The notes under the pieces are model-generated. The model had not been told where the DNA came from and did no database searches. It saw only the letters and a list, made by a program, of their open reading frames with translations. Shown in pieces: positions 11,867-64,000 of a DNA stretch of 64,000 bases (position 1 is its first letter; each line of letters opens with the position of its first letter). The DNA comes from Rhodanobacter humi (GTDB lineage: Bacteria; Pseudomonadota; Gammaproteobacteria; Xanthomonadales; Rhodanobacteraceae), in the NCBI RefSeq assembly GCF_041107455.1, contig NZ_JBGBPY010000001.1, positions 2,294,001 through 2,358,000 on the forward strand, in the 5' to 3' direction. Made by a program: the position numbers and the translations under genes.

Positions 11867-11871
11867 TGTTT

Positions 11872-33121: not shown

Positions 33122-33183
33122 GTTTCGGCATGCGGCGCGGGTTGCAAATCCTCTCTCGCCCGCTGGCGGGAATCTACGGCTTT

Positions 33184-33220
33184 CCCTCTCCCCCAACAGC
33201 TTCATCGTTGGGGGAGAGGG
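33184..33220. terminator. Strong hairpin downstream of the permease genes
   Basis: CCCTCTCCCCCAAC (33184-33197) and GTTGGGGGAGAGGG (33207-33220) form a perfect 14-base-pair stem with a nine-base loop, followed by TTGGGGTGAGGGGG. No U-run, but its place after the importer operon suggests a transcript end or stabiliser; it belongs to the CCCTCTCCC repeat family. Confidence 0.6.
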
Positions 33221-33265
33221 TTGGGGTGAGGGGGGCTTTTGCTTCTGCGTGTACGCAAGCATCAG

Positions 33266-33872: not shown

Positions 33873-33939
33873 TTGTCGCTTGCGCAATCGCCAGGCAAAA
33901 GCCATCTCCGGCCAGCGCGCACGAGCAGACATGCGCGCT

Positions 33940-35034: not shown

Positions 35035-35118
35035 CGGCGTTGCGTGCTCTCTGGTGATGGTCGCGGCACGGTGATCGCTGTCGCGGAAAAGGGCGTGCAT
35101 CCCGCGACGGCGTTCGGC

Positions 35119-35144
35119 TATTCTCGGAATGTAATCGATTACAT
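35119..35144 (+). promoter_or_regulatory. Perfect 16-bp operator palindrome at the GH1 promoter
   Basis: ATGTAATCGATTACAT (35129-35144) is a perfect palindrome centred on CG, typical of LacI-family operators, just downstream of a possible -10 TATTCT (35119-35124). It differs from the operator-like site at 22350-22363, so a different regulator, probably outside the window, may control GH1/GH39 and perhaps the divergent ATPase gene. Confidence 0.7.
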
Positions 35145-35180
35145 CAAGCCGCGGTGCGGCATTCGAGAGTTTCGCAGGTC

Positions 35181-36536: not shown

Positions 36537-36570
36537 ATCGTCGAACGACATGCACGAAGGAGACGAGTCG

Positions 36571-39096: not shown

Positions 39097-39128
39097 AACG
39101 TCAAGGTCACAGATTCAGGGGGATGACC

Positions 39129-39752: not shown

Positions 39753-39793
39753 AGCAGATGTCCGAGGGGGCTCAGGGAGGAGAGTCGAACGCC

Positions 39794-47438: not shown

Positions 47439-48076
47439 GCGGCCACCGCCGGCAGCGCGCGCAGGCTGCGGCCGGCGGTGTGCCAGGCTGGCAGCAGGTG
47501 CGCGAGGATCTGCGCCGCGCAGTCGCTGTCGTCGTGCATCAGCAGCACGTCGCCGTCGGCCGGCGGTCGCTGCAGCAGCCGTGCGGCCAACTCATCGGGC
47601 GGTTGCGGCTGGTAATCCAGGCTGTCGTAGGACCAGTAGGCCAGATTGCGTCCGCGCCGCGCGAAGGCCAGCAGCAGCCGCAGCGACACCACGCCGCGCG
47701 GTGGCCGGAAGCGGTGCGGGCCGGAACGGTCGAAGTCCGCCAGCAGGCGGTCGGTGCGCTCCACCTCGTCCAGCTGCTCGCGCAGGCTGAGTCGGTGGAA
47801 CAGCGGATGGCTGTACGAGTGATTGCCCAGGGTGTGACCCTCCGCCACGATGCGTTCGACCAGCGCGGGGTGCTGCTCGATGCGCCGGCCGACCAGGAAG
47901 AAGCTCGCCCGCGCGCCGTGCCGGGCCAGCAGGTCCAGCAGGCGGGGCGTGTGCTCCGGATGCGGGCCGTCGTCGAAGCTGAGGTAGAGCGCGCCCGGCT
48001 CGCGCGGGCCGCGCACCAGCACCAGGCGTTCGGGCAGCAGGCCAAGCACTTGCTGTCGCGTGGGCCGGATCCTCAC
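47435..48076 (-). CDS. Polysaccharide deacetylase (NodB/CE4 family)
   Basis: 213 residues from GTG 48076, which overlaps the preceding gene's stop (GTGA); no better start is seen. CE4 motifs are complete: LYLSFDDGPHPEHTPRLLDL (motif 1), GHTLGNHSYSHPLFH (motif 2, metal histidines), RPPRGVVSLRLL (motif 3) and DVLLMHDDS. No signal peptide, so it may act in the cytoplasm on lipid-linked sugars or be anchored through partners. Substrate probably an N-acetylated sugar of the exopolysaccharide. Confidence 0.9.
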   Translation of the reverse strand: MRIRPTRQQVLGLLPERLVLVRGPREPGALYLSFDDGPHPEHTPRLLDLLARHGARASFFLVGRRIEQHPALVERIVAEGHTLGNHSYSHPLFHRLSLREQLDEVERTDRLLADFDRSGPHRFRPPRGVVSLRLLLAFARRGRNLAYWSYDSLDYQPQPPDELAARLLQRPPADGDVLLMHDDSDCAAQILAHLLPAWHTAGRSLRALPAVAA

Positions 48077-49245
48077 CGCAGCACCTCCGCCACGGCCTCG
48101 TTGCGCGCCGCCTGCCGCATGATCGCATCCAGCTGGTCGATGTTGCTGTCCCAGCTGAAGCCGCGCGCGTGCTCCGCGATGGCGGCGTGGTCCCAGGCCT
48201 GCGCCGCCGCTTGCGCCAGCGCATCGGCGAGCGCGGCGCGGTCGCCCAGCTCCACGAGCCGGCCGGCGTGTGCAGGCACCACCTCGGGAATGCCGCCCAC
48301 CCGCGTGGCCACCACCGGCGTGCCGCAGGCCATCGCCTCCAGCACCACGTTGGGCACGCCTTCGTTGTGACTGGGCAGGCACAGCAGGTCGGCGGCGCGG
48401 AACCAGTCGGGCAGCGCCGCGTGGGGCATCGCGCCGGCCAGGTGCACGCGTGCAGCCAGGCCAAGTGTTTGCGCACGCGCGGCCAGCGCGGCGCGGCAGG
48501 TGCCCTCGCCTACGTACACCAACTGCGCCTGCGGACACGAGGCCGCCATCGTCGCGAAGGCTTCCAGCAGATCGAGGCAGCCCTTGCTCTCCTTCAGGTT
48601 GCCGACGTAGAGCAGCAATGGGTCGGCCGCGATGTCCAGGCCGAGCCGCTTGCGTGCATCCGCCTTGTCTCCGGGGGCGAAGCGCGCAGCGTCGACGCCG
48701 TTGTAGATCGCGTGCACGCGCGCGGGGTCCGCGCCCAGCGCCACCGCCTTGCCGGCCAGCGCGCGGCTCACCGCCACCACCGCGGCGGCGCCACGCAGGC
48801 TCGCGGCGATCTGCGGCCGGCGCAGCGCGTGCGTGGCCTGTACGTTGAGGTCGCTGCCGTGCACCTTCACCACGTATGGAATGCCGAGCAGGCGCGCCAG
48901 CCAGCCGGCGGCCACCGCATCGGGATAGGCCCAGCTTGCGAGGATGCCGTCGTAACCGGCCGTGCGCAGCCGCCAGCCGCGCTGCAGCAGCAGCGACAGC
49001 AGCCAGCAGGCCGCGTGCAGCGCGCGGCCGAAGCGCGGCGGGTAGACGAACACGAAATGATCGGTGCGCAGGCCAGGCACCTCGACGCTGCCGCGCCGCT
49101 TGCGCAGGCGATCGCGGAAATCCACCGCGGTGAGCACGTGCAACTCGTGGCGCCGGCCCAGGCGTTCGAACTGCTGGCGGTTGAACATGCCGCGCAGCGG
49201 ATCCCAGGGCGTCGGGAACAGGTTGGTCAGCACCAGCAGCTTCAT
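48073..49245 (-). CDS. Glycosyltransferase family 4
   Basis: 390 residues from ATG 49245; the frame is open upstream, but only as shadow of the next gene. MKLLVLTNLFPTPWDPLRGM, VPYVVKVHGSDLN-like IPYVVKVHGSDLNVQATHAL, VHAIYNGVDAARFAPG, LYVGNLKESKGCLDLLEAFA and HNEGVPNVVLEAMACGTPVV (EX7E) define a GT4 retaining transferase. Donor and acceptor unknown. Four-base overlaps on both sides place it firmly in the operon. Confidence 0.92.
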   Translation of the reverse strand: MKLLVLTNLFPTPWDPLRGMFNRQQFERLGRRHELHVLTAVDFRDRLRKRRGSVEVPGLRTDHFVFVYPPRFGRALHAACWLLSLLLQRGWRLRTAGYDGILASWAYPDAVAAGWLARLLGIPYVVKVHGSDLNVQATHALRRPQIAASLRGAAAVVAVSRALAGKAVALGADPARVHAIYNGVDAARFAPGDKADARKRLGLDIAADPLLLYVGNLKESKGCLDLLEAFATMAASCPQAQLVYVGEGTCRAALAARAQTLGLAARVHLAGAMPHAALPDWFRAADLLCLPSHNEGVPNVVLEAMACGTPVVATRVGGIPEVVPAHAGRLVELGDRAALADALAQAAAQAWDHAAIAEHARGFSWDSNIDQLDAIMRQAARNEAVAEVLR

Positions 49246-50357
49246 GCGGCCGGCTCCCGCGACTCGTACAGCGCGGCGTAGCGCGCCGCCATCGCCTCGA
49301 GCGAGCCGCGCGTCTCCATCATCGCGCGGGCGGCTGCGCCGCAACTCGCGGCGCGCTGCGGATCGCGCAGCAGGTCGAGGATCGCCTGCGCCAGCGCATC
49401 GGCGTCGCGCGCCGGCACGATGCGGCCGGTGACGCCGTGTTGCACGATCTCGCGGTTGCCGCCGACGTCGGTGGCCACGATCGGCAGCGCGGTGGCGGAG
49501 GCTTCCAGCAGCGCCATCGAGTAGCCCTCGCTCACCGAGGAGAGCACGAACACGTCCAGCCCCTGCAGCAGCTCGCGCACGTCGCTGCGGTCGCCGAGGA
49601 AATGCACCGCGTCGGCGAGGCCCTCGTCGCGCGCGCAGGCTTCCAGCTCGGGCCGCAGCAGGCCGTCGCCGACCAGCAGCAGCGCGCTGTCCGCCTGCTG
49701 GTCGTGCACGCGGCGAAACGCGCGGATCAGGTTGGCTTGGTCCTTCGCCCAGTTGAGCCGCCCCACCGTGCCGACCAGGCGCGTCTGCGGCGACAGCGCT
49801 AGCGCCTGGCGCAAGCGCTCGCGCGCGGCCGGCGAGGCAATGGCGAACTCCTGCACGCGCAGACCGTTCGGCACCACGCGCAACTTGCGGCGCGGCACCA
49901 GGCCGTGCTCGATCGCGCCGTTGCACGCCGCCTCGCAGACCATCGCCACCGCGTCGGTGCGCGCCAGGCTGGCGCGATAGAGCATTTCCGCGCGGTTCCA
50001 GCGCTGCATGCCGCCCATGCCGTGGCGGGTGTTGATGAGCTTGGCCACACCCAGGCCGAGACTGGCCAGCACCGCCAGGTAATGCGCCACCGCGTTGTGG
50101 CTGTGCAACACGTCGGTGTGGTGGGCGCGGATCAGCCGGCGCACGCGCGACAGCGCCTTGAGGTCGAAGCCCCTGCGCTTGCCGCAGGCATGCACCGGGA
50201 TGCCCGCGACATCCAGCTCGTGCGCCAGCGTGCCGCGTTCGAACAGGCATATCACCTGGCAGTGGTGGCCTTGCTGCTGCTGCAGCTTGACCAGGTCGAG
50301 CACGACGCGTTCCAGTCCTCCGCGGTTCAGATTTTCCACGACGTGGGTGATGTTCAT
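49242..50357 (-). CDS. Glycosyltransferase family 4
   Basis: 371 residues from ATG 50357. MNITHVVENLNRGGLERVVL, VLHSHNAVAHYLAVLASLG, KLRVVPNGLRVQEF, VGTVGRLNWAKDQANLIRAF and SSVSEGYSMALLEASATALP are typical GT4 elements. The N-terminus closely follows the sugar transferases found in exosortase-A-type exopolysaccharide loci (TIGR03088-like). It lies eight bases after the PaaK-like gene. Confidence 0.92.
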   Translation of the reverse strand: MNITHVVENLNRGGLERVVLDLVKLQQQQGHHCQVICLFERGTLAHELDVAGIPVHACGKRRGFDLKALSRVRRLIRAHHTDVLHSHNAVAHYLAVLASLGLGVAKLINTRHGMGGMQRWNRAEMLYRASLARTDAVAMVCEAACNGAIEHGLVPRRKLRVVPNGLRVQEFAIASPAARERLRQALALSPQTRLVGTVGRLNWAKDQANLIRAFRRVHDQQADSALLLVGDGLLRPELEACARDEGLADAVHFLGDRSDVRELLQGLDVFVLSSVSEGYSMALLEASATALPIVATDVGGNREIVQHGVTGRIVPARDADALAQAILDLLRDPQRAASCGAAARAMMETRGSLEAMAARYAALYESREPAA

Positions 50358-50365: not shown

Positions 50366-51724
50366 TCAGGAGGAGGAAGGTGGAAGGGCGGAGACGGTGA
50401 CGCGCAGCTTGCCGCTGGGCGTCAGGGGAAGTTCGTCGACGATCCGGCACTCGAGCGCGACGCTGTCGCCGACCACCTTCGCCAGCTCGCGGCGGATGTA
50501 CGCCATCGAGGCGTCGTCGAAGCGGTTGTCGCAGACCAGCGCCAGCTCGAGGCGGTCGAGCCGGCGCTGCACCAGCTGGAAGCGACGCAGGCCCGGCACG
50601 TCCTTGAGCATGTGCGGGAAGAACTCGCCGGGCAGCAGGTGGCCGTCGGGCGTGCGGATCGCATCCAGCTTGCGGCCGTCCACGTGCGCCAGCAGCGGCA
50701 GGCCGCGTCCGCACGGGCAGGTTTCCGTGCCGGCCGTGGCCAGGTCGCCGTTGGCATAGCGCAGCAGCGGCATGCCGTAGTTGGAGAGGTCGGTGAGCAG
50801 CACCTCGCCACTGGCGCCGCTCGTTGCCGCGCCGTGCAGTTCCACCACCAGGTGGTCGGCGTTGACGTGCAGGCCGTGCCGCTGTTCGCACTCGGACGCG
50901 ATCAGCATCACCTCGCGGCAGCCGTAGGTGTTGTAGGCCGGGCAACCGAACGCCCGCTCGATCAGCTCGCGCTGGAAATCGTGCAGCGCCTCGGCCGCGC
51001 CGAGCACCGCGGCCGGCGGCCGCGCCAGCGTGCGGCGGTTGTCCAGCAGCCACTGGGCCAGCCGTACCAGTGGGCCCACGTAGCCCACGATCACCTCGGG
51101 CCGATAGGCGTCGATGGCGTCGGCGTATTCGCCGAGGTTGGCGTCGGTCATGTGGAAGCTGTTGAGCATGCGTCGCGCGAACGCCGCGTGGTACAGCCGA
51201 TCCTTGAACTGGTGCAGGCGCCGCGGCTCGCCCACCGCACCGCCCCACACGTACAGCGTGCGCCGGCCCATGCGCGCGCCGGCCCAACCGTAGCCACGCC
51301 ACATCACCGCGGTGCGCCGCTCGTTGCTCTCGCGGGTATAGCCGAAGCGCATCGGCTGGCCGGTGGAGCCGCCGGTGGCCTTGTACAGCAGGCGCTCATG
51401 CCAGCCGTCGGCCTTGAACTCGTCGAAGTGCGCGCGGATCTCGTCCTTGTCCAGCACCGGCAGGCGCGCGTAGTCGTCCAGGCTGCGGATGTCCGCCGCC
51501 GCGATGCCGAGCTCGCGCCAGCGCCGGCGATACCAGGGCACGTGCTGCTCGCAGTGCCGCAGCAGGCGCAGCAGGCGTTCCAGCTGCAGGGCGCGGAGCT
51601 GTTCGGGCGCCAGCCACTGGTCGCGCTCGTAGCCGGCGAGCCAATCCAGCGTGCGGCGCCGGCGCAGGCCCGATTCGTAGGCCGGGTAGAGCACCCGGCG
51701 AAACAGGTGTTCGTAGACGCTCAT
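50366..51724 (-). CDS. PaaK/CapK-like adenylate-forming enzyme
   Basis: 452 residues from ATG 51724. Phenylacetate-CoA-ligase-like: ATP loop LYKATGGSTGQPMRF, YGCREVMLIASECEQ, NYGMPLLRYANGDLA, and the C-terminal PLTPSGKLRVTV with the mobile-domain lysine. A cysteine pair CPCGRG follows GDLATAGTET. Relatives (CapK, and others in polysaccharide loci) are thought to activate an acid as adenylate or thioester for polymer modification. Its place in one operon with two peptide synthetases suggests supply or transfer of an acyl group. It overlaps the flippase gene by four bases. Confidence 0.85.
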   Translation of the reverse strand: MSVYEHLFRRVLYPAYESGLRRRRTLDWLAGYERDQWLAPEQLRALQLERLLRLLRHCEQHVPWYRRRWRELGIAAADIRSLDDYARLPVLDKDEIRAHFDEFKADGWHERLLYKATGGSTGQPMRFGYTRESNERRTAVMWRGYGWAGARMGRRTLYVWGGAVGEPRRLHQFKDRLYHAAFARRMLNSFHMTDANLGEYADAIDAYRPEVIVGYVGPLVRLAQWLLDNRRTLARPPAAVLGAAEALHDFQRELIERAFGCPAYNTYGCREVMLIASECEQRHGLHVNADHLVVELHGAATSGASGEVLLTDLSNYGMPLLRYANGDLATAGTETCPCGRGLPLLAHVDGRKLDAIRTPDGHLLPGEFFPHMLKDVPGLRRFQLVQRRLDRLELALVCDNRFDDASMAYIRRELAKVVGDSVALECRIVDELPLTPSGKLRVTVSALPPSSS

Positions 51725-53271
51725 GGGTGCTGCCCCGCGCGCACGCCGGACCACGCCAGCAGGCGCCCCAGCAGCAGCGGCCGGCCCGCCGCGAAGCGCT
51801 GGTGCAGGCTTTTCAGCTGCTCGATGTCCGCGCCCGTCCAGCAGCGCAGCCACAGCGTGAGCGGCAGGTACGCCGCGACCAGCACCGGGCCGCCCAGCAG
51901 CAGCGTGAACAGCGGCGGCAGGCGCAGCGGCAGCACCAGCGAGGCGACGGCGCCGGCCAGCGCGGCGGCCAGCAGGATGCGTCCGAGCCGGCGCCATTCC
52001 AGCGGCAGGCCGCCGACGCGCATGCCCAGCAGCACGTAGGCCGAGGAGCTGACCACCGCGGCGATCACGATCGCCGCCATCGCGCCGTGCAGCCCGAAAT
52101 GCCGGACCAGGGTCACATCCACGCCGATCTTGAACACGCCGAACAGCAGGGTGAGCGTGAGGATCACGTGCTGGCGGTCGGCGCTCACCAGCAGGCTGGT
52201 CGCACCCTGCGCCGAGGTGTTCAGCGCGCTGGCCAGCATGCACAGCGCGAACACCGGCGCGGCGGCGGCGTAGGCGGCGCCGTACAGCAGCCCGATCACC
52301 GCGCCGGCGAAGCAGGCGCCGAACGCCACCATCGGCGCGCCGAGCATGGCCAGGTACGAGGTCGCCGTCACGAAGCGTTGGCCGCCCACGGTGCGGCCCT
52401 CGCTCAGCGCCTTCGCCATCATCGGCAGCAGCACCGCGCTGAACACGCCCGGCACCAGCAACATGATGCCGCTGGCCAGCTGGAAGGCCACCTTGAAGTA
52501 GCCCGCCGCGGTGGCGCTGGCGAACAGGTTGAGGAACAGGATCTCCACGTCGCTGGCGATCAGGAAGCTCACGATGATGGTCAGCGAGACGATGCGCAGG
52601 TGCCGGCGGATGCGCCGCAGCAGTTCGCCCGGCAGATCGCCGAGGCGCGGCAGCGGCGCCAGCAGGCGACGCACCTGGTACTGCGAGGCGAACAGGAACA
52701 TCGCGCTGGAGATCGCATACATCACCACGAACCACAGGATGTCGCCGTGCAGCAGCATCGCGGTGACCACCAGCGCCAGGTTGGTCGGCGCCGCCACCAG
52801 GGTGATCCGGGCGGTGGCGTCGAAGGCCTCGAAGCCCTTCGCGATCGCCACGTTGAACATGTACGGCGCGCGCATGCCCACCGCGGCCGCAAGCAGCACG
52901 AATTCCAGCAGGTCCAGCTCGGCGGCGTAGCGCCGTCCGAGCAGCAGGTACAGGCCCAGGCCCAGGCCGAGCACCACCAGCAGGTGCCAGCGCTGCACCT
53001 TGCGCATGTAGGCGAGCATCGGCCGGATCAACTCGGGTTGCCGGCTGCCGCGCAGCTCCGCCACGAACTTGATCACGCCGGTGGTGATGCCTGAATTGGT
53101 CACCACGATGCCGATCGCCGCGAACCAGATGAACAGGCCGTAGATGCCGTAGTGGCGTGGCCCCAGATGGCGCGCGATCAGCACCGCGCAGACCATGCCG
53201 AGGAAATACTCGACGTAGATCCCCAGCGAGGAGAACAGCGTGTTGCGCAGGGTGAGCGAGCGTGGGGTCAT
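51721..53271 (-). CDS. Polysaccharide flippase (Wzx/MATE-like)
   Basis: 516 residues from ATG 53271 (MTPRSLTLRNTLFSSLGIYV). Twelve or more membrane helices; MVCAVLIARHLGPRHYGIYG and VILTLTLLFGVFKIGVDVTL match the oligosaccharide flippase family. It would move lipid-linked repeat units across the inner membrane for polymerisation. Ten bases downstream of the polymerase-like gene. Confidence 0.92.
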   Translation of the reverse strand: MTPRSLTLRNTLFSSLGIYVEYFLGMVCAVLIARHLGPRHYGIYGLFIWFAAIGIVVTNSGITTGVIKFVAELRGSRQPELIRPMLAYMRKVQRWHLLVVLGLGLGLYLLLGRRYAAELDLLEFVLLAAAVGMRAPYMFNVAIAKGFEAFDATARITLVAAPTNLALVVTAMLLHGDILWFVVMYAISSAMFLFASQYQVRRLLAPLPRLGDLPGELLRRIRRHLRIVSLTIIVSFLIASDVEILFLNLFASATAAGYFKVAFQLASGIMLLVPGVFSAVLLPMMAKALSEGRTVGGQRFVTATSYLAMLGAPMVAFGACFAGAVIGLLYGAAYAAAAPVFALCMLASALNTSAQGATSLLVSADRQHVILTLTLLFGVFKIGVDVTLVRHFGLHGAMAAIVIAAVVSSSAYVLLGMRVGGLPLEWRRLGRILLAAALAGAVASLVLPLRLPPLFTLLLGGPVLVAAYLPLTLWLRCWTGADIEQLKSLHQRFAAGRPLLLGRLLAWSGVRAGQHP

Positions 53272-53281: not shown

Positions 53282-54706
53282 TCATGGCATGCGCAGCAGC
53301 ACGGCCACCAGCACGTAGAGCGCCGCGATGACCATCAGCGAGATCGGCAGCCAGCGCCAGCCGCTGGCCGAGAGGGTGAAACGCGGCAGCGTGTCGTGGC
53401 GCTTGCGCAGAGTGGCGTAGTGGCCCACCACGATCGCGGCCAGCGTGTAGAGCATGATGTTGTAGCTGCGGCTGAGGAAGAACGCGGCCGTGAAGAAGCC
53501 GCACAGCGCGCAGAACAGGGTCAGCGACAGCGCCTGTTCGGCACGGTCCTGGCGCTCTTCCGCCGTCGTGCCCGCGGTGGTCCCCGCACCAGTTGCCGCG
53601 ACGGCCGGCCCGCGCGCGACGGCGACCCGGCGCTGCTCCACGCCGGCGCCGGCGGGCAGCGCCCGCACCAGCGCCAGGCGTGTCTGCGGGCGTGCCGCCA
53701 CCACGTGCGCGGCGGCGACCTGCGCCGCTTGCGCCAGCCCCGCCTGCAGGCGCAGCAGGCGCCACATCATCCAGAAGCCGTAGCCGACGAAGGCCAGCCA
53801 GGTCACGAAGCCCAGGAAGCCGGTCTCGGCCAGCACCAGCACGAAGGAGTTGTGTGCGGTCAGCGTGTTGTAGTCGGTGAAGTTGCCGAAGCCCACGCCG
53901 AACAGCGGGTGCGTCTTGAACATGTCGAAGCCTTCGTACCACGCGTCCACGCGGCCGAAGGCGGACTCTTCGTCCGGGTCGAGGTCGTTCATGCGCGTGG
54001 ACGGCAGCAGCATCAGCCCGACCAGGCCGGCGAAGCTCAGCGAGCCGGCGGTGAGCGGCCCGCGCTTCTGCCACAGCCAGATCGCGCCCATCATCAGCAC
54101 CGCCAGCTGGGTGCCGCGCGACTTGGTCAGGTAGATGCCGGCCAGCAGCAGCACGATGCCGGCGCGCCAGAACCAGCGGCCGAGGAAGCCGGCGCGCGCG
54201 GCCACGCAGAACAGCATCGGCAGCGCCATCACGAACAGCAGGCCGAGGTCGTTGGGATCGTTGAAGATGCCCACGTAGCGGATGCGCCCGTCCTCGCCCA
54301 GGGTCATGCCGGTCCAGCCTACGCCCTGGCTGGCCTGCTCCACGCTGTGCAGGGCCAGCACCATCGCGCACAGCCCGATCACCGCGAAGGTGGTGGCGGT
54401 GCGGCGCGGATCGTCGATGGCGCTCGCCAGCACGAAGAACACGATCAGCGACGGCCCCATCTGTTCGAGCACGTATTCCATGCCGCCGGACCAGCCATTG
54501 ACCACCATCGAGGCCATCGCGATCAGCACGAACAGCGGCAGCAGCAGGAACTGTGGTGCGCCGGGCGTGCGCGCGCCGCGCAGCAGCCAGCCGACGAAAG
54601 CCAGCAGCAGGGTCAGCGACATCACCGGCAGGCCCGCCATGCCGGGCAGGAAGTCCTGCGGGCGGACGATCGCGAAAGCGAGGTAGACGAGGATCAGCAG
54701 GAACAT
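53282..54706 (-). CDS. O-antigen polymerase/ligase-like membrane protein
   Basis: 474 residues from ATG 54706, with GGGGAG eight bases upstream; an ATG at 54778 would add 24 residues without membrane character. About eleven membrane helices, beginning MFLLILVYLAFAIVRPQDFL. Wzy-C motifs are GIFNDPNDLGLLFVMALPML, TKSRGTQLAVLMM, and the periplasmic loop GFGNFTDYNTLTAHNSFVLV followed by LAETGFLGFVTW. It probably polymerises the repeat unit. An extra Ala/Arg-rich stretch of about 80 residues interrupts the last third (QAAQVAAAHVVAARPQTRLA onward). Confidence 0.88.
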   Translation of the reverse strand: MFLLILVYLAFAIVRPQDFLPGMAGLPVMSLTLLLAFVGWLLRGARTPGAPQFLLLPLFVLIAMASMVVNGWSGGMEYVLEQMGPSLIVFFVLASAIDDPRRTATTFAVIGLCAMVLALHSVEQASQGVGWTGMTLGEDGRIRYVGIFNDPNDLGLLFVMALPMLFCVAARAGFLGRWFWRAGIVLLLAGIYLTKSRGTQLAVLMMGAIWLWQKRGPLTAGSLSFAGLVGLMLLPSTRMNDLDPDEESAFGRVDAWYEGFDMFKTHPLFGVGFGNFTDYNTLTAHNSFVLVLAETGFLGFVTWLAFVGYGFWMMWRLLRLQAGLAQAAQVAAAHVVAARPQTRLALVRALPAGAGVEQRRVAVARGPAVAATGAGTTAGTTAEERQDRAEQALSLTLFCALCGFFTAAFFLSRSYNIMLYTLAAIVVGHYATLRKRHDTLPRFTLSASGWRWLPISLMVIAALYVLVAVLLRMP

Positions 54707-54782: not shown

Positions 54783-55919
54783 TCACCACAGGTGCAGCCT
54801 CCGGTTGCGCGCGAACGCCAGCAGCGCCTGCGCGGCGAACAGATTGAGATAGCAGAACGCGGTCAGCAGCCGCACGGGCTGGCGCCCGCCCAGCGTCGGC
54901 AGCAGGCGTCCGGCCACCACCGCGGCGAGTGCGGCGAGCAGCCCCAGCGCGGTCGCCGCGAACAGCGCATGCCGCGTCGCCAGCAGCGTCGCCGAGAGCG
55001 CCAGCGCCAGCAGCAGCCACGGCGCCAGCAGGCGCAGCAGCTTGTGGCTGACGAAGCGGAACCACAGCGGGTTGCGCCACGGCAGCAGCAGCCATGGCGC
55101 CAGCTGCACCAGCTGGTAGTTGCCGGCCAGCGTGCGGATCTTGCGGCGCTGCTCCTCGCGCGGCTGCTGCGAGCTGCCGTCCCAGGCCACCGCAGCCGGC
55201 TCGTACACCACGCGCAGCCCGGCCGCGGCCACCTGCATCGGCACCAGCACGTCGTCCAGCACGGTGCCCGCCGGCAGCGGCCGGAACAGCGCGCGGCGCA
55301 TCGCGTACAGCGCGCCGCTGACGCCGATCACCGAACCGGAGCGGCTTTCGCCGGCGCGGATCAGCGTCTCGTAGCGCCAGTACGCATCGATGCCGCGGGC
55401 GAAACCGGTGTGCGCGTCGAACAGGCGCAGCTGCCCGCCGACCGCGCCCACCTGCGCATCGCCCAGGTTCGCGACCAGCTGGCGCAGCGCGTCCGGCTCC
55501 AGCCGCTGGCGCACGTCGGTCATCAGCAGCACCTCGCCGCGCGCCTCGGCCACCGCGTCGTTGAGGCAGGCGGCCTTGCCGCGCCGCTCGGCAAACTCCA
55601 GCACGCGGATGCGCGCATCGCCGAGCGCGCGGGCGCACGCCGCGGTGTCGTCGCGGCAGCCATCGCAGGCCACCACGATGTCGAGCCGTTCCGCCGGATA
55701 GTCCAGGGCGAGCAGGCCTTCGAGCTTGGCGCGCACGTGCGCGGCGCCGTCGTGCACGGCGAGTACCGCGGTGACGCGCGGCGTCCACGCGCGCCGTTGC
55801 ACCGGGCGCGGCCGCCAGCGCGCCAGCGCGGCGACCCACAGCGGATAGCCGGCGAAGACGTGCACGAGGGCAAGCGCCGATATCGCAAAGACTTCACTGG
55901 CAAAGCCAATCAAGGCCAT
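54783..55919 (-). CDS. Glycosyltransferase family 2, membrane-associated
   Basis: 378 residues from ATG 55919. An N-terminal membrane helix, a GT-A domain ([93 protein letters not shown], then [20 protein letters not shown] resembling QXXRW-type processive enzymes) and three or four C-terminal helices. It overlaps the upstream peptide-synthetase gene by 26 bases, an unusually long overlap, so translation is probably coupled. It may start or extend the polymer. Confidence 0.9.
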
Positions 55920-58900
55920 CCCCCCACCATGTTTTGTCCATGACGAACCACAGGCCCATCCCGAACCAGCGATGCAAACGCAGCAGCAGCGGCAATCGCG
56001 GCGCGTCTTTCGCCCTCTCGGGCAGTTCGCGGGCCAGCATCGCCAGCGTGCCGGAGGCCACGTCGAGCAGCTGCAGCCGCACCGCGGTCTCCCGCTGCAC
56101 GCGCGCCACGAATTCCACCGCCAGCAGCGAGTGGCCGCCCAGGTCGAAGAAGCTGTCGTTGGCGCCCACCTGTTCCACGCCGATCAGTTCGCGCCAGATC
56201 GTGGCGAGGTAGGCCTGGCGCGGATCGGCCAGTCCACCTGCCTGCGTTCGCACGCCGCGCCGCGCGGCCGCGGACGGTGGCGGCAGGGCCTTGCGGTCGA
56301 TCTTGCCGTTCGGTGTCTTCGGCAGCGCGTCCAGCCGCTCGATGTGCTGCGGCTGCATGTAGGCGGGCAGTTGCCGGTGCAGGCGGGCGCGCAGGCGCTC
56401 GGCCAGTTCGTCGTCTGCCGCCGCAGCCACGTGCAGCACGAGGCGCAGGTCGTTGTCGCCGAAGCTGCGCGCCACCGCCACGCACTCGCGCACGCCCGGC
56501 TCGGCCGCGGCCGCCGCCTCGATGTCGCCCGGCTCGATGCGGTAGCCGCGGATCTTGATCTGGTCGTCCGCGCGGCCATTGAAGTAAAGCTGGCCGTCGC
56601 GCCAGCCGCCGCGGTCGCCGGTGCGGTACATGCGGCCGCCGGCGAAGGGGTCGTCCACGAAACGCTCGGCGGTGAGGTCGGGGCGGTTGAGGTAGCCGTC
56701 GGCCACGCCATCGCCGGCGATCCAGATCTCGCCGACGACGCCCGGCGGCTGCGGCTGGCCGCGCTCGTCCAGCACGTAGATGCGGGTGTTGGCGATCGGC
56801 TGGCCGAGCGGGATCGGTTCCATGCCTGGCCAGATGCGCACCAGCGAGGACCAGATCGTGGTCTCGGTGGGGCCGTACAGGTTCCACAGTTCGCGGCAGC
56901 GCCCGGCCAGCGAGCGCGCCAGCGCCAGCGGCATCGCCTCGCCGCCCACGAACAGGCGCAGTCCGCGCACCACGTCCTCGCGGCCGATGCCTTGCAGCAG
57001 GCGCAGCAGCGAGGGCGTGGTCTGCAGCACCGTGCAGCCGCTGTTCGCCATCAGCTCGCACAGCGCCGGCGGATCGCGGTGCTCGGCCTCGGTGGCGATC
57101 ACCATGCGGCCGCCGACGATCAGCGGCAGGTACAGCTCCAGCCCGGCGATGTCGAACGACAGCGTGGTGACGGCGCACAGCGTGTCGCCGGCGCCGTAGC
57201 CCGGCTGCTCGCGCATGGCCAGCAGGAAGTTGACCAGGTTGCGGTGCAGGATGCGCACGCCCTTGGGCTGGCCGGTGGAGCCGGAGGTGAACAGCACGTA
57301 GGCCAGGTCGTCGCCGTGCACGGGCGGCAGCGGTTGTCCGTCCGCCGGCTCGGCCGCCAGTTCGTCGACCACCAGGCAGCTGCGCCCCTCCGTCAATTCG
57401 GGAGGAGGATGCAGGACGGGCGTGACCAGCAGGTAACGCAGGTCGGCATGCCCGGCCATGTAGCCGAGCCGCTCCTGCGGAAATTCCGGGTCCAGCGGCA
57501 CATAGGCGGCGCCGCTCTTCAGGGTGCCCAGCACGGCGACCAGCATGTCCAGGCTGCGCGGCACATACACGCCGACCAGGTCGCCGCGGCCGATGCCACG
57601 ACGCGCCAGCGCCAATGCAAGGGCGCTGGTGCGCCGTTCGAGCGTGGCGTAATCCAGCGCTTCGCCGGCGCATTCGGCGGCGATGTTTTCCGGCGTGCGC
57701 CGCGCCTGCGCCGCGATCAGCGCCGGCAGCCCCGTGCCGAGGTCGTAGTCGCGCGCGGTGTCGTTCCACGCCTGCAGCACCTGGAAGCGTCCGGCGGCAT
57801 CGAGCATGGGCAACTCGGCGATCGTCGACGCAGCGGGCGCGGTCGTGCCGGCGAGCGTTTCCAGCAAGGTGGCGTAGTGGCCCAGCCAGCGCTGCAGCGT
57901 GGCCACGTCGTAGCGCGCGGCCGCGCCGTGCAGGTCGATGCCGAGCGCATCGCCTTCCAGTGCCGTGCGTGCGTGCAGCTCGCCCAGCAGTGCCGCGCGG
58001 CCGCCGTCGATCACGCGGTGGTGCAGGCCGGCAAAGGCAAACCCGGGCATGCCCGGATCGAACTCGAACGAGACTGTGCCGAGGGCCGCTTCCGCACCGC
58101 CGCGGTGCAGGCCGAGTGCGCGCAGCAGGCCCATCAGGGTGACCTGGCCGTGCGCATGGACCTCATGCAGCGCGGCGGCAGTACGCGCGAGCAGGTCCGC
58201 GACGCTTTGCCCGGGTTCCACGCGCAGGCGCAGCGGCAGGAAGTGCAGCGGCTCACCGTGCATGCCGACCGGCACGCCGAGGGCGAAGTCGTGCTGCCCG
58301 CTCATGCGCATCAGGAAGGCCGCATAGCCGCCGAGCAGCACGTCGCGCAGCGACAGGCCGCAGTCCTGCGCCAACCGTCGCAGGCCGGCGACCGTCGCCG
58401 CCGGCAGCACGTGGCGGGCGCCGACGGCGTCGAATCGCGGCCGCACCGGCGCCGAGCGGTCGGTGGGCAGGTTCAGCGGATCGGGCAGGTGGCCCAGGCG
58501 TGCGCGCCACCAGGCGAGCGCTTCGGCGGGCACCGCGTCGTCGAACGGCGGCAGGGGCACCGGCGCGGATGCCGGTTCCTGTCCCGCGAGCAGCTCGCCA
58601 TAGGTTTGCGCCAGCTCCGCCAGCAGGCGGCCGGTGGCGCGGCGGTCGAGCACCAGTTCGTGGGCGTGCAGCAGCAGGGCATGCCGATCCTCGCCCAGAC
58701 GCAGCAGTTCCAGGCGCAGCAGCGGCGGCACGCACGGGTCGAACGGCGCGCGCAGACGCGCCTGGACGTGCGCGGCCAGGCGCGCTTCCGCGGCGTCGCC
58801 AGCGGACGAGAAATCGTGCCGCGCCCATGGCAGCGGCAGGTCGTCATGCACGTGCAGCGTATGGCCGTCGGCGGACGGCTGGATGCGCAGGCCAGCGTGC

Positions 58901-59103
58901 CGCCGCCACAGCCGGGCGGCGGCCTGTTCCAGCACGGCGGCCTGCAACGGGCCATCCAGCCGCAGCACGGTGAGGTGGGCGAGCGCCAGCGCGGCACCGT
59001 CGCCGTACTGGCCGGCCAGCCATTTCTCCGTGCGGATTTCACCCAGCGGAAAGGCGGAGCCGGTCATCGGTTCCGCGTATCGGCCATCAAGACGGTCATT
59101 CAT
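55894..59103 (-). CDS. Nonribosomal peptide synthetase, single module C-A-PCP, glycine-like code
   Basis: 1069 residues from ATG 59103 (GGGGAC upstream). Residues ~20-430 are a condensation domain whose core motif, normally HHxxxDG, reads HAHELVLDR (146-154), so the second histidine is replaced and the domain may be inactive. Residues ~450-960 are an adenylation domain ([45 protein letters not shown]-like core, [12 protein letters not shown]). Reading the ten specificity positions by hand gives D-I-L-Q-F-G-L-I-W-K, close to glycine codes. A carrier domain ([14 protein letters not shown]) and a hydrophobic tail end the protein. No thioesterase is present. Confidence 0.92.
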
Positions 59104-59226
59104 GCTGTCCCCTGTTTCGAACAATCCCCTGTCCAACATGCATCGGTCGAAACGGTGTCGTCATTATGGCCATGGCACTTCGGTATGGCGATGGGTGGAT
59201 CGATGTTGCCGCACGCGCGTTCCGCA

Positions 59227-62200
59227 TCAGCGCAGGCCCAGCAGTCGCCGCAGGCGATGGCCGAACGGAACGTGCGGCCCGGCCGCGGCGGGTTCGGGCA
59301 ACTGCCCGGCCAGCGCGGCGAGGGTGCTGCTGGCGATATCCAGCAGGTTCAACCGCACGCCGGTCTCGCGCTGCACGCGCGTGGCCAGCTCCACCGCCAG
59401 CAGCGAGTGCCCGCCCACGTCGAAGAAGTTGTCCTGCGACGCCACCTCGCCCACGCCGATCAGCTCGCACCACACCGCGCCCAGGTAGCGGCGGCGCGGA
59501 TCGTCGTCCGCACTGCGCGGTGCGGGCTCGTCCCCGCTCGTCGTCGCGGGCAGCGGCAGTGCCTTGCGGTCGAGCTTGCCGTTCGGCGTCTGCGGGAACG
59601 CTTCCAGTCGCACGATGTGCTGCGGCCGCATGTAGCCGGGCAGCTGTGATTCCAGCATGCCGCGCAGGCGCGGCAGCAGCGTGGCCTCCGCCTCGGTGGC
59701 GGCAACGTAGAGCACCAGGCGCTGGTCGCTGGCGGACAATTCGCACACCACGGCCGCGGCGTCGTTCACCGCGGCGTCCTCGCGGGCGATCGTCTCGATC
59801 TCGCCGGGTTCGATGCGGAAGCCGCGAAGCTTGATCTGGAAGTCGGCGCGGCCAAGGTGTTCGAGGGTGCCGTCGGCGCGCCAGCGGCCGCGGTCGCCGG
59901 TGCGGTAGAGCCGTGCACCGGGTTCGGCGGAGAACGGATCGGCGACGAAGCGCTCGGCGGTGAGCTCCGGCCGGTGCAGGTAGCCGAGCGCCACGCCCGC
60001 GCCGCCGATCCACAGCTCGCCCGGCACGCCCAGCGGACAGGGCTGGCGCCGTTCGTCCAGCACCCACACCGTGGTGTTCGCGATCGGCGTGCCGATGGTG
60101 ATCGGCTGATCCGGCGCCACCTGGGCACAGGTCGACCACACCGTGGTCTCGGTGGGGCCGTACATGTTCCACAGCGCGCCGCAGCGTGCCCGCAGCGCGG
60201 TGGCCAGATCCGGCGCCAGCGCCTCGCCGCCGCACAGCGCGCGGAAGTCCGGGCCGCCTTGCCAGCCGGCCTGCAGCAGCATGCGCCAGCTGGCCGGCGT
60301 GGCCTGCATCAGCGTGATGCGGTGGCCGGCCAGCAGCGTCTTCAGTGCGTCGCCGTCCATCGCCTGCTCGCGCGTGGCCAGCACCACGCAGCCGCCCACG
60401 CCCAGCGGCCCGAGCAGTTCCAGCACCGCGATGTCGAAGGACAGCGTGGTGACGGCGAGCAGGCGGTCGTCGGCGCGTAGGCCGGGACGCTCGGCCATGC
60501 TGGCGAGGAAGTTCGCCACGGCGCGATGCGGGATCGCCACGCCCTTGGGCCGACCGGTGGAGCCGGAGGTATAGATCACGTAGGCGGTAGCCGCGGGATC
60601 GACGGACAGCGCGGGCGGCGTGACGGGCAGCGCGTCCCAGCCGGCGGGCGGTGCATCCAGCGCGATCGGCGGGCGGTCCGGCCGATCGAAGCGTGCGGCC
60701 AGCGACGCCTGGGTGAGCAGCACCGCCAGCTTGGCGTCGGCGACCATGTAGGCCAGCCGCTCGGCGGGGAAGGCGGGATCGAGCGGGACGTAGCCGGCGC
60801 CGGCCTTGAGCGTGCCGAGCAGAGCGGCGAGCATGGCGGGGCCGCGTTCGAGCGCGATGCCGACGAGGTCGCCGGGGTGGACGCCGTGCGCGATCAGGCC
60901 ATGGGCGATGCGGTTGGCCTGCTCGTCCAGCGCGCGGTAGCTCAGTGTCTCGTCGCCGCAGCGCAGTGCGGGGCGCTCCGGTGAAGCAGACGCCTGGCGT
61001 TCGAACGCGCCGTGCATGGTCGGCACGGGAATCGCCGCGTTGGTGGCGTTCCAGGCGTGCAGCCGCGCCAGCTCGTCGGCCGGCAGCAGCGGAAGTTGCG
61101 CGATCGATTGACGCGGATCGGCCAGCGCGCCTTCCAGCAGGGTCTCGTAGCTGCGGCGGAAACGTGCGGCGGTGGACGGGTCGAAGATGTCGGCATTGAA
61201 GCCCATGCCGCCGAGCAGGCGCTGCTCCTGCTCGATGAACCACAGGCCCAGATCCTCGGTGCTGCCGCGCTGGAACACCGGCAGGTGTTCGTGCTGCAGG
61301 CCGCCCCAGGTGGTGGCGCGGCCGCGCACGTCCTGGAAAGAGAACATCGCCTGCGCCAGCGGCGGCCGGCTCTCGTCGCGCGGCAGGCGCAGCGCCTTGA
61401 CCAGGTGCTCGAACGGCACGTCCGGGCACGCGAAGGCGTCGAGCACCATCGTGCGCACCGCACGCAAAGTGTCGAGGAAACTGGCCTGTGGATCGATCGC
61501 CAGGCGCAGCGGCAGCGCGTTGACGAAGAAGCCCATCATCGGTTCCAGCTCAACCGCGTCGCGGCCGCGCACCGGCGTGCTCACCACCAGGTCGCGCTGG
61601 CCGCCGAGCCGGTGCAGCAGTGCGAAGTAGGCCGCGAGCAGCACGATGAACGGCGTGGTGCCGGCCTGCTGCGCCAGCGCGTGCACGGCGATCAGCCGTT
61701 CGGATGGCAGCACGATCCACTCGGTGGCGCCGGCCCCGGACATGCGTGTCGGTCGCACGCGGTCGGCGGGCAGCTCCAGCGGTTCGATGCGGCCCTTGAG
61801 GCGGGACAGCCAGTGGTCGAGCTGGCGCTGCAGTTCCTCGCCCTGCATCCACTGCCGCTGCCACGCGGCGAAGTCGCCGTACTCGACCGCCAGCGGCGGC
61901 AGCGGATCGGGCTGGCCGGTGCGGAAGGCCTCGTAGAGTGCGCTCAGCTCCCGGTACAGCAGGTCGAACGACCAGCCGTCCCAGACGATGTGGTGGGTCA
62001 TGAAGAAGAACACGTGTTCCTGCTCGCCCAGCCGGAACAGCCGGGCGCGGAACAGCGGCGGCGTGGCCAGGTCGAACGGTTCGGCGATCAACGCGTCCAG
62101 CCGGCGCCGCAGCCAGGCATCGCGTTCGTCTGCCGGCATGCCGGAGAGATCCTCGAGCGGCAGCTCCACCTCCAGTTCGGCGTGGATGCGCTGCATCGCG

Positions 62201-64000
62201 CCCGTCGCGTCCGGCTCGATCGAGGTGCGCAGCACCGGCTGGCGGCGGACCATGGTGCGCAGCGCCTGCTCGAAGGCGGCGAGATCCAGCGATCCGCTCA
62301 GGCGATGCGCCGACGGCGTGTGAAACGCCACGCCGCCGGGCCTGAGCTGTTCGAGGTACCACACGCGTTGCTGCATCAGCGACAGCGGCGCGCGTTCGCG
62401 GTCAGCCAGGCGCGCGATCTGGCGCGGCTCCTGTTTGCCGGCTGCACCTGCCGCGCGTATCGCTGCCGCCAGCCGCGCCACGGTTGGCGCTTCGAACAGG
62501 GTACGCAGCGACAGCGCCAGACCCAGCTCGCGATTGAGGCGCGCGGTGAGTTGCGCGGCGAGCAGAGAGTGCCCGCCGTGCTCGAAGAAGTCGTCGTCCA
62601 GGCCCGGCTCCAGTCCACCCAGCACGGCCGCCATCGCCTGCGCGATCTGGCGCTCCAGTTCGTCGCGCGGCGCAGCGCGCGCGACGGCCGGCGCGGCGGC
62701 GAGCGGCGCCGGCAGCCGGGCGCGGTCGATCTTGCCATTGGGTAGCAGTGGCAGCGCAGCCAGCACCACGAAGTGCTGCGGCAGCATGTATTCGGGCAGG
62801 CGTTCGCGCAGGCGGCTGCGCAAGGCGGCCTCGTCCACCGGCGCTTCGCTCGCCAGATAGGCAACCAGGCGTGCGTCGCCCGGACGATCCTCGCGCACCA
62901 TCACCAGGGCTTGCGTCACCGGCGGATGGCCGGCCAGCTGCGTCTCGATCTCGCCGGGTTCGATGCGGAAGCCGCGAAGCTTGATCTGGAAGTCGGCGCG
63001 GCCAAGGTGTTCGAGGGTGCCGTCGGCGCGCCAGCGGCCGCGGTCGCCGGTGCGGTAGAGCCGTGCACCGGGTTCGGCGGAGAACGGATCGGCGACGAAG
63101 CGCTCGGCGGTGAGCTCCGGCCGGTGCAGGTAGCCGAGCGCCACGCCCGCGCCGCCGATCCACAGCTCGCCCGGCACGCCCAGCGGACAGGGCTGGCGCC
63201 GTTCGTCCAGCACCCACACCGTGGTGTTCGCGATCGGCGTGCCGATGGTGATCGGCTGATCCGGCGCCACCTGGGCACAGGTCGACCACACCGTGGTCTC
63301 GGTGGGGCCGTACATGTTCCACAGCGCGCCGCAGCGTGCCCGCAGCGCGGTGGCCAGATCCGGCGCCAGCGCCTCGCCGCCGCACAGCGCGCGGAAGTCC
63401 GGGCCGCCTTGCCAGCCGGCCTGCAGCAGCATGCGCCAGCTGGCCGGCGTGGCCTGCATCAGCGTGATGCGGTGGCCGGCCAGCAGCGTCTTCAGTGCGT
63501 CGCCGTCCATCGCCTGCTCGCGCGTGGCCAGCACCACGCAGCCGCCCACGCCCAGCGGCCCGAGCAGTTCCAGCACCGCGATGTCGAAGGACAGCGTGGT
63601 GACGGCGAGCAGGCGGTCGTCGGCGCGTAGGCCGGGACGCTCGGCCATGCTGGCGAGGAAGTTCGCCACGGCGCGATGCGGGATCGCCACGCCCTTGGGC
63701 CGACCGGTGGAGCCGGAGGTATAGATCACGTAGGCGGTAGCCGCGGGATCGACGGACAGCGCGGGCGGCGTGACGGGCAGCGCGTCCCAGCCGGCGGGCG
63801 GTGCATCCAGCGCGATCGGCGGGCGGTCCGGCCGATCGAAGCGTGCGGCCAGCGACGCCTGGGTGAGCAGCACCGCCAGCTTGGCGTCGGCGACCATGTA
63901 GGCCAGCCGCTCGGCGGGGAAGGCGGGATCGAGCGGGACGTAGCCGGCGCCGGCCTTGAGCGTGCCGAGCAGAGCGGCGAGCATGGCGGGGCCGCGTTCG
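59227..64000 (-). CDS. Nonribosomal peptide synthetase, A-PCP-C-A-PCP visible (5' end outside window)
   Basis: About 1590 residues visible; the frame continues past base 64000. In order: adenylation domain 1 (to ~62700), carrier FFEHGGHSLLAAQL (~62560), condensation domain (LSLMQQRVWYLEQL; active motif MTHHIVWDGWSF near 61975-62000), adenylation domain 2 (~61010-59570) and carrier [14 protein letters not shown] (~59410), ending LRRLLGLR. Both adenylation domains have the same code, hand-read as D-I-L-Q-L-G-M-V-W-K, close to published glycine codes. No epimerase or thioesterase is visible. It precedes the second synthetase gene by 123 bases, so chain transfer to that protein or to a polysaccharide acceptor is possible. 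Confidence 0.93.
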   Translation of the reverse strand, partial: ERGPAMLAALLGTLKAGAGYVPLDPAFPAERLAYMVADAKLAVLLTQASLAARFDRPDRPPIALDAPPAGWDALPVTPPALSVDPAATAYVIYTSGSTGRPKGVAIPHRAVANFLASMAERPGLRADDRLLAVTTLSFDIAVLELLGPLGVGGCVVLATREQAMDGDALKTLLAGHRITLMQATPASWRMLLQAGWQGGPDFRALCGGEALAPDLATALRARCGALWNMYGPTETTVWSTCAQVAPDQPITIGTPIANTTVWVLDERRQPCPLGVPGELWIGGAGVALGYLHRPELTAERFVADPFSAEPGARLYRTGDRGRWRADGTLEHLGRADFQIKLRGFRIEPGEIETQLAGHPPVTQALVMVREDRPGDARLVAYLASEAPVDEAALRSRLRERLPEYMLPQHFVVLAALPLLPNGKIDRARLPAPLAAAPAVARAAPRDELERQIAQAMAAVLGGLEPGLDDDFFEHGGHSLLAAQLTARLNRELGLALSLRTLFEAPTVARLAAAIRAAGAAGKQEPRQIARLADRERAPLSLMQQRVWYLEQLRPGGVAFHTPSAHRLSGSLDLAAFEQALRTMVRRQPVLRTSIEPDATGAMQRIHAELEVELPLEDLSGMPADERDAWLRRRLDALIAEPFDLATPPLFRARLFRLGEQEHVFFFMTHHIVWDGWSFDLLYRELSALYEAFRTGQPDPLPPLAVEYGDFAAWQRQWMQGEELQRQLDHWLSRLKGRIEPLELPADRVRPTRMSGAGATEWIVLPSERLIAVHALAQQAGTTPFIVLLAAYFALLHRLGGQRDLVVSTPVRGRDAVELEPMMGFFVNALPLRLAIDPQASFLDTLRAVRTMVLDAFACPDVPFEHLVKALRLPRDESRPPLAQAMFSFQDVRGRATTWGGLQHEHLPVFQRGSTEDLGLWFIEQEQRLLGGMGFNADIFDPSTAARFRRSYETLLEGALADPRQSIAQLPLLPADELARLHAWNATNAAIPVPTMHGAFERQASASPERPALRCGDETLSYRALDEQANRIAHGLIAHGVHPGDLVGIALERGPAMLAALLGTLKAGAGYVPLDPAFPAERLAYMVADAKLAVLLTQASLAARFDRPDRPPIALDAPPAGWDALPVTPPALSVDPAATAYVIYTSGSTGRPKGVAIPHRAVANFLASMAERPGLRADDRLLAVTTLSFDIAVLELLGPLGVGGCVVLATREQAMDGDALKTLLAGHRITLMQATPASWRMLLQAGWQGGPDFRALCGGEALAPDLATALRARCGALWNMYGPTETTVWSTCAQVAPDQPITIGTPIANTTVWVLDERRQPCPLGVPGELWIGGAGVALGYLHRPELTAERFVADPFSAEPGARLYRTGDRGRWRADGTLEHLGRADFQIKLRGFRIEPGEIETIAREDAAVNDAAAVVCELSASDQRLVLYVAATEAEATLLPRLRGMLESQLPGYMRPQHIVRLEAFPQTPNGKLDRKALPLPATTSGDEPAPRSADDDPRRRYLGAVWCELIGVGEVASQDNFFDVGGHSLLAVELATRVQRETGVRLNLLDIASSTLAALAGQLPEPAAAGPHVPFGHRLRRLLGLR
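59791..60850. repeat. Direct repeat copy 1 (adenylation domain 2 coding region)
   Basis: By eye identical to 62941-64000, offset 3150 bases (1050 codons, one synthetase module). The copy starts at CGTCTCGATCTCGCCGGG and remains identical as far as the window edge allows, so the repeat may run beyond 60850. Confidence 0.92.
62941..64000. repeat. Direct repeat copy 2 (adenylation domain 1 coding region)
   Basis: Partner of 59791-60850, cut by the end of the window. The flanks differ immediately outside the left boundary (GATCGTCTC against CTGCGTCTC), marking a sharp edge just after the GEIET-coding region of the adenylation domain. Confidence 0.92.

Follow-up and report, generated by a model that had tools for sequence, protein, structure and literature searches.

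Why would a locus for exopolysaccharide (EPS) synthesis be headed by nonribosomal peptide synthetase (NRPS) genes, and what becomes of the peptide that they specify? The question is raised by a 64,000-nucleotide stretch of Rhodanobacter humi DNA, called here the window (bases 2294001-2358000 of the main contig of the 4.15-Mb genome, assembly GCF_041107455.1). An earlier note on this DNA had described two synthetases at the head of a polysaccharide operon and had proposed that they put a short oligoglycine, or a similar amide, onto the polysaccharide or its lipid carrier. Our comparison of genomes suggests, without proving, that a peptide is made for the polysaccharide and attached to it; we put the probability of this at roughly 0.6. 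The direct basis is the anatomy of the genes and domains, the adenylation codes, the retention of the genes together in different genomes, and an invariant cysteine in Hyd1, one of two hydrolase-fold proteins (Hyd1 and Hyd2) encoded in the window. From these we infer the substrates (by way of the codes), the order of the steps, the role of Hyd1 as a transferase, the acceptor, and the covalent attachment.

We found that the operon starts beyond the end of the window. Upstream flank was added past base 64000, and positions that include it are given in extended window coordinates. Both synthetase open reading frames in the window are real and in frame, but they are preceded by a third, which encodes a combined polyketide synthase (PKS) and NRPS of 2401 amino acids. 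That is, three synthetase genes head the operon, not two. The operon lies on the minus strand and encodes, in order, PKS/NRPS, NRPS_A, NRPS_B, a GT2 glycosyltransferase, a Wzy-like protein, Wzx, a PaaK-like enzyme, two GT4 glycosyltransferases, a deacetylase, another GT4 and PDA2, down to position 45070. From the PKS gene on, neighbours overlap or sit no more than 123 bases apart (starts chosen by eye); PKS/NRPS overlaps NRPS_A by 4 bases, and the genes from GT2 through the third GT4, which follow the synthetases on one strand, are separated by -26 to +76 bases. Convergent to the operon, on the plus strand, are genes for Wza, a chain length determinant, a tyrosine kinase, an outer membrane protein, Hyd2 and Hyd1 (Table 1).

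The PKS/NRPS has the domain order adenylation (A), carrier (T), ketosynthase (KS), acyltransferase (AT), T and aminotransferase (AMT), and the KS, AT and pyridoxal phosphate (PLP)-lysine motifs are present. Its loading domain is an amino-acid A domain (TIGR01733, 433.5 bits vs 317.4), not a fatty acyl ligase. The AT carries HAFH, which we take, as is usual, to indicate malonyl; the meanings of the KS, AT and PLP motifs are likewise assumed. A PLP aminotransferase domain of the MycA type sits after KS-AT-T, and its best match in the PDB is the aminotransferase of mycosubtilin synthase A, MycA (6kfm, E 8e-127). The MycA aminotransferase forms beta-amines on carrier-bound beta-ketoacyl chains.

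We read the A-domain codes by profile alignment. The loading domain has DALFFGPTFK, both A domains of NRPS_A have DILQLGMVWK, and that of NRPS_B has DILQFGLIWK, in agreement with the codes DILQ[L/F]G[M/L][V/I]WK that had earlier been read by hand. In a published survey of codes, DILQLGMIWK is given for Gly, DALWIGGTFK is among the commonest Leu/Ile/Val-type codes and is also found in Val domains, DVWHLSLVDK and DVWHMSLVDK are Ser codes, and DFWNIGMVHK is a Thr code (PMC12283262). Two of the window codes differ from the printed Gly code at 1 of 10 positions, and their description as glycine-like stands. Linear gramicidin synthetase in the PDB was tried as a check on the Gly and Val codes; its codes differ by eye, which speaks neither for nor against the assignments.

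To place these codes among relatives, we used a search with the PKS that gave 111 confirmed matches, of which the best 80 were kept and 79 loci fetched. The nearest named relative among the matches kept is Rhodanobacter sp. C06 (95% identity in the best PKS segment). Loading codes were readable in 62 of the 79 loci, the window itself being excluded and 17 loci being dropped where the start of the PKS was cut off or absent. The Val form DA[LF]WxGG[TV]FK, 0 to 2 residues from DALWIGGTFK, accounts for 35 of them, Pro-like codes for 9, the form seen in the window for 2, and others for 16. Later modules in the relatives have mainly Gly-type or Ser-type codes, with isolated other codes and Thr-like ones among those seen. 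The Pro-like and Ala-type labels are our presumed assignments.

All three PF00668 condensation (C) domains of the genome reside in NRPS_A and NRPS_B. The motif position in NRPS_B reads HELVLDR rather than HHxxxDG, as it does in the L002 and L027 orthologs; the string HHRVIDG occurs elsewhere in this domain, off the motif position. A third Gly from NRPS_B is doubtful because of this motif. Judged by the codes, the first building block is probably a Val-like amino acid, which would be extended with malonate and transaminated before two Gly-type modules follow; the starter would be a beta,gamma-diamino acyl group.

Plain oligoglycine, joined as an amide to the polysaccharide or its carrier with the help of the PaaK-like enzyme, thus becomes unlikely. 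The three Gly-type codes and the PaaK-like gene within the operon do fit such a product. However, the Gly modules come after a PKS/NRPS that has a Val-like loading code, a malonyl-type AT and a beta-transaminase, and whose gene lies directly upstream of NRPS_A and overlaps it; the condensation motif of NRPS_B is lost; and relatives also use Ser-type, Thr-like, Ala-type and Pro-type codes. The PaaK-like enzyme, present in the operon as the earlier note had it, has a relative in only 12 of the 79 loci (Rhodanobacter, Dyella and one metagenome-assembled Lysobacteraceae genome; flanks of up to 10 kb) and was not seen in the stretches read from Thiomonas, Lysobacter, Frateuria and Aquabacterium. 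It is outside the conserved core. We consider the oligoglycine proposal very improbable.

The architecture of the NRPS part is not the same in all lineages. Rhodanobacter and Dyella have C-A-T-C-A-T, Thiomonas and others have C-A-T-C-T, and in Lysobacter C-A-T-C-T is followed by a thioesterase (TE) region and T; in the L024 NRPS (11362-17679), where these were read by eye, the TE-like region lies between two carrier domains, as T-TE-T. In three loci (L015, L022 and L013) the last module is C-T without an A domain, so the last carrier either receives its amino acid in trans or carries none. Separately, the A domains of NRPS_A are identical over an exact 1232-base direct repeat (59791-61022 and 62941-64172, extended coordinates), which points to a recent duplication or conversion event and is likely to trouble short-read assemblies.

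The association of the synthetases with a polysaccharide locus is conserved. The gene order cupin, PKS, NRPS, Wzy, (Wzx,) PaaK, GT4, GT4 recurs in Rhodanobacter and Dyella. We sampled 33 genomes, which carry one to six PF02563 (wza-type) genes each, and the nearest such gene lay on the PKS contig and within 40 kb in 26 of the 33; among genomes with AMT identity of at least 68%, it did so in 23 of 24. In 197 genomes of the family to which the window belongs, 80 had both PKS and Hyd1, 5 had the PKS only, 2 had Hyd1 only, and 110 had neither (Fisher p 3e-46, a statistic that ignores relatedness). These counts take the AMT fragment as present in 85 genomes (E up to 1e-130) and Hyd1 in 82 (E up to 1e-60). 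PKS and Hyd1 were on one contig in 66 genomes, within 40 kb of each other in 61 and at 44 to 465 kb in 5, and on different contigs in 14. The distribution is patchy: of 15 sampled genomes of the window's own genus, 5 had both and 10 had neither. PF02563 genes were found in 150 of the 197 genomes, so the PKS is missing from at least 65 genomes that do have such a gene. Thus, Hyd1 tracks the PKS and not EPS export in general.

A search in the other direction led back to assembly lines. With Hyd1 as bait, 110 of 299 genomes of the family of G024 had a match. In 15 of the 19 best (E up to 4e-58), an NRPS or NRPS/PKS lies just upstream of the Hyd genes, within about 1.4 kb; G024 and G011, among the 19, were already known PKS carriers from the PKS search. 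The earlier suggestion that the hydrolase-fold proteins matter is borne out by this search and by the co-occurrence. Together, these comparisons make a strong case for a functional tie among the assembly line, Hyd1/Hyd2 and the EPS locus.

We aligned Hyd1 of the window with 25 sequences chosen from 52 profile matches, once cross-hits to Hyd2, fragments, overlapping copies and a second L044 copy had been removed. Every one of the 26 carries Cys where the nucleophile is expected, and D134, D242 and H243 do not vary. At the nucleophile motif, Hyd2 of the window has GFGAQ, and the five relatives for which a motif script gave a usable reading (L038, L039, L042, L044 and L057) have GMG. Against the models for exosortase-associated hydrolases, Hyd1/Hyd2 reach 75.6 bits for TIGR03100 (cut-off 168.45) and 73.8 for TIGR03101 (cut-off 202.75), and are therefore relatives of these families, not members. 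Cys at the nucleophile position would favour transfer over hydrolysis. Hyd1, with a Cys in its hydrolase fold and its association with carrier-protein systems, would best be read as an acyltransferase acting from carrier to acceptor; we propose that Hyd2 is its apparently inactive partner. In two loci, L157 (1-4202) and L158 (12775-17811), Hyd2 and Hyd1 are fused, a phosphopantetheinyl transferase gene lies within about 2.5 kb, and L158 also encodes a small carrier protein. It is possible that such fused loci with a carrier are a simpler version of the same transfer system.

NRPS_A ends in a T domain and a tail, and the assembly line has no TE domain at its end. No PF00975 thioesterase was found in the locus; one match elsewhere in the genome exceeds the cut-off, about 190 kb away, and a second falls below it. 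No peptide exporter is among the annotated operon genes, the search for transporters being confined to the locus. The absence of both had been remarked on before and holds within these limits. A basic tail after the last carrier domain (e.g., RLRRLLG) was scored in 45 of 52 tails and in 6 of 60 PKS C-termini. Because the scoring rule was written after the tails had been seen, we treat the tail as a lead (to docking or membrane binding) and not as evidence.

Most NRPS/PKS lines yield free products, and this one might as well: the line could make a small secreted peptide (an antibiotic, protease inhibitor or metallophore), with Hyd1 and Hyd2 as trans-acting thioesterases and the EPS genes as mere neighbours. 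Several results favour this or otherwise weaken the case for our reading. The nearest PDB matches of Hyd1 are hydrolases. Toward the C-terminus, beyond the last C domain, five Lysobacter lines (L024, L026, L049, L072 and L073) contain a GGSMGG region that resembles a thioesterase; this speaks for release or for an alternative transfer step. Some counterpart of the window's EPS-type genes occurs in 48 of the 79 loci and in 43 of the 55 that are 20 kb or longer, a lax count in which a single similar gene of any kind, such as one glycosyltransferase, suffices. The remaining 12 of the 55 have none, and this type of PKS therefore occurs elsewhere too; these loci are mostly distant (Rhodobacterales, Verrucomicrobia, Saprospiraceae and others), with L014, L016 and L075 closer. 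Seven of the 33 genomes (G018, G019, G024, G026, G027, G029 and G032) have no PF02563 gene within 40 kb. Four of the 19 best Hyd1 loci have no adjacent line (G319, G471, G277 and G008, the last with its PKS on another contig), and in 11 of the other 91 Hyd1 loci, which are weaker matches viewed over 3.4-3.9 kb, Hyd2 and Hyd1 are mostly fused and no A or C domain is present; L157 and L158 are two of these 11, seen over a longer stretch. The co-occurrence is itself inflated by shared ancestry, and no more than a few candidates per genome were scored at first look. Six genomes in which the Hyd1 match was weaker (E 2e-31 to 6e-23), none with the PKS, were dropped, and counting them would raise Hyd1 only to 8. 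Finally, the identity of the first residue is uncertain, since the window's loading code and the printed Val code disagree at 3 of 10 positions.

Nonetheless, we consider a free secreted peptide unlikely. In the window Hyd1 is grouped with the export genes, genomes retain PKS and Hyd1 together even when the two are unlinked, a wza-type gene is near the PKS in most genomes sampled (26/33), the annotated operon genes of the locus include no peptide exporter, and the Cys of Hyd1 points to transfer, although this last argument draws on knowledge of the family and is not a test.

A further alternative depends on the nature of the polysaccharide. The export protein (TIGR03027, 208.7 bits vs a cut-off of 180), the chain length determinant (TIGR03007, 372.3 vs 278.85) and an upstream sugar transferase (TIGR03013, 548 vs 393.35) all belong to the XrtA type, and TviB exceeds its curated cut-off in 3 of 4 clusters tested. 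The best explanation of these matches is an XrtA-type polysaccharide with an N-acetylhexosaminuronic acid, the latter predicted from TviB. Exosortase-linked protein sorting was considered and rejected, there being no PF09721 exosortase match in the whole genome. The peptide might then leave the cell and be retained in the matrix without a covalent bond, perhaps as a cation that cross-links the acidic polysaccharide. The predicted diamino starter would be cationic and would pair with the predicted hexosaminuronate, which would be acidic, and the co-occurrence data fit this too; they cannot separate covalent attachment from a free peptide associated with the matrix. But this explanation leaves the TE-less terminal carrier and the Hyd1/Hyd2 pair unaccounted for, and no gene for export of a free peptide is among the annotated operon genes. 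We regard it as less likely still than a free secreted product.

If the peptide is attached to the polysaccharide, as we favour, the steps could be as follows. PKS/NRPS would load a Val-like amino acid, add one malonyl unit and, by transamination, convert the beta-keto group to an amine, so that a beta,gamma-diamino acyl starter results. Two glycines would then come from NRPS_A, and NRPS_B, with its condensation motif lost, would supply or hold a further glycine. With no thioesterase, the peptide would remain on the last carrier domain, from which Hyd1, together with Hyd2, would take it over and pass it to an amine on the polysaccharide or on the lipid-linked repeat, before flipping by Wzx. 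The acceptor amine would most likely be an amino sugar freed by the deacetylase, a guess made because the locus encodes one. Of the two deacetylases described earlier, the NodB-type protein at 47435-48073 remains a candidate, with matches below the cut-offs, but the other (45070-46272, PDA2) matches no family.

If true, this would add a new kind of decoration to those of bacterial polysaccharides. Nonribosomal synthesis would serve structural polymers and not free metabolites alone, and biofilm polysaccharide would bear a peptide code that is programmable and varies by species. A function would be suggested for exosortase-associated hydrolases 1 and 2, a Cys acyltransferase would become available for coupling peptide to glycan, and there would be an explanation for thioesterase-free NRPS/PKS clusters that genome miners would class as orphan natural products. 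More tentatively, and with somewhat less than even confidence, we suggest a widespread and so far unrecognised class of proteobacterial EPS. In its members, a TE-less NRPS/PKS would build a lineage-variable peptide on a beta,gamma-diamino starter, and a pair of hydrolase-fold proteins, one with Cys and one dead, would transfer it to the lipid-linked repeat; the simpler betaproteobacterial carrier-protein/Hyd systems would be ancestral. Attachment of the peptide could be tested in Rhodanobacter, Dyella, Frateuria or Thiomonas, which can be cultured.

Beyond the cupin gene, upstream and again on the minus strand, lie genes for a 958-amino-acid protein, the TIGR03013 sugar transferase, a TviC-like epimerase whose match is below cut-off, and TviB, whose match exceeds it. 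Next to the genes for EPS export, at 30029-38169, are sugar ABC transporter genes and two glycosidase-like genes (translations read by eye). PDA2 is 74-80% identical in four Rhodanobacter/Frateuria/Dyella clusters and 46% identical in a Rhodocyclaceae cluster.

Table 1. Genes of the R. humi locus and its upstream flank (window coordinates unless marked).
Feature	Coordinates	Strand	Remarks
958-aa protein	L081 2575-5451	-	between cupin gene and sugar transferase; no Pfam match; polysaccharide lyase-like by eye
cupin_8 protein	72889-73803 (extended)	-	upstream of PKS/NRPS
PKS/NRPS, 2401 aa	65619-72824 (extended)	-	A-T-KS-AT-T-AMT
NRPS_A	59227-65622 (extended; 59227..64000 inside window)	-	C-A-T-C-A-T; both C domains HHxxxDG; ends in T + basic tail ...GHRLRRLLGLR
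NRPS_B	55894..59103	-	C*-A-T; A code DILQFGLIWK; C domain without HHxxxDG (HELVLDR)
GT2-type glycosyltransferase	54783..55919	-	best NCBIfam match PgaC, below cut-off
Wzy_C / O-antigen ligase-polymerase family	53282..54706	-	PF04932 over cut-off
Wzx-type flippase	51721..53271	-	PF01943 over cut-off
PaaK-like AMP-dependent ligase	50366..51724	-	NCBIfam matches below cut-off; no Pfam match at E 0.001
GT4 glycosyltransferase	49242..50357	-	nearest TIGR03088 (XrtA-associated), below cut-off
GT4 glycosyltransferase	48073..49245	-	
NodB-type polysaccharide deacetylase (putative)	47435..48073	-	matches to eight deacetylase models (E 2e-13 to 3e-29), none reaching its cut-off
GT4 glycosyltransferase	46269..47438	-	nearest TIGR04063 (XrtA-associated), below cut-off
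PDA2, conserved protein	45070..46272	-	no Pfam or NCBIfam model matched
Hyd1, alpha/beta-hydrolase fold	44256..45068	+	Cys112 at nucleophile position (GxCxG); D134, D242, H243
Hyd2, alpha/beta-hydrolase fold	43486..44259	+	GFGAQ at GxSxG position, neither Ser nor Cys
Outer membrane protein	42179..43489	+	TIGR03016-like, below cut-off
XrtA-type tyrosine autokinase	41335..42102	+	TIGR03018-like, below cut-off
XrtA system polysaccharide chain length determinant	39758..41338	+	TIGR03007 over cut-off
XrtA/PEP-CTERM exopolysaccharide export protein (wza-type)	39123..39752	+	TIGR03027 over cut-off

Among the open-licence PMC papers that our searches listed, no title or abstract opening describes an NRPS peptide coupled to a polysaccharide. 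The nearest chemical precedent that we know, offered as an analogy, is the thiopeptidoglycan sheath, which has a peptide part of Cys and Gly. The sheath glycoconjugate of Sphaerotilus/Leptothrix has thiol, carboxyl and amino groups (PMC8264430) and the sheath contains amino sugars (PMC5529543), the S. montanus sheath has a GalN-GlcA linkage (PMC11976392), and the sheath genes are "not well understood" (PMC13386937). We rejected identity with this sheath and kept the analogy only: no DLYNLSLIWK-like code, as for a Cys-activating module, is among the codes read in the window and its relatives, and no sheath former of known structure is among the genomes compared.

Three known systems each share part of the proposed logic. 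The locus resembles XrtA/PEP-CTERM EPS systems in that its export protein, chain length determinant and sugar transferase exceed the respective cut-offs and Hyd1/Hyd2 match the associated hydrolases below cut-off. Unlike those systems, the genome has no exosortase match and the locus contains an NRPS/PKS line; the XrtA AMP ligase model TIGR03098 was reached, among the proteins scanned, only below cut-off and by the synthetases themselves. Mycosubtilin/iturin-type PKSs, represented by the known architecture and activity of MycA, share the KS-AT-T-AMT logic, and the AMT of the window is closest to the solved MycA domain. In contrast to MycA, the PKS of the window is loaded by an amino-acid A domain and not by a fatty acyl ligase, and its line continues with Gly modules, has no TE, and lies inside an EPS locus. 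The Dlt system (DltA, DltC and DltB) D-alanylates teichoic acids. As we propose here, it transfers a carrier-bound amino acid to a cell-surface polymer, and the A domains of the window match DltA models below cut-off; by contrast, the window specifies a multi-module peptide, and the proposed transferase is a Cys hydrolase-fold protein rather than an MBOAT protein.

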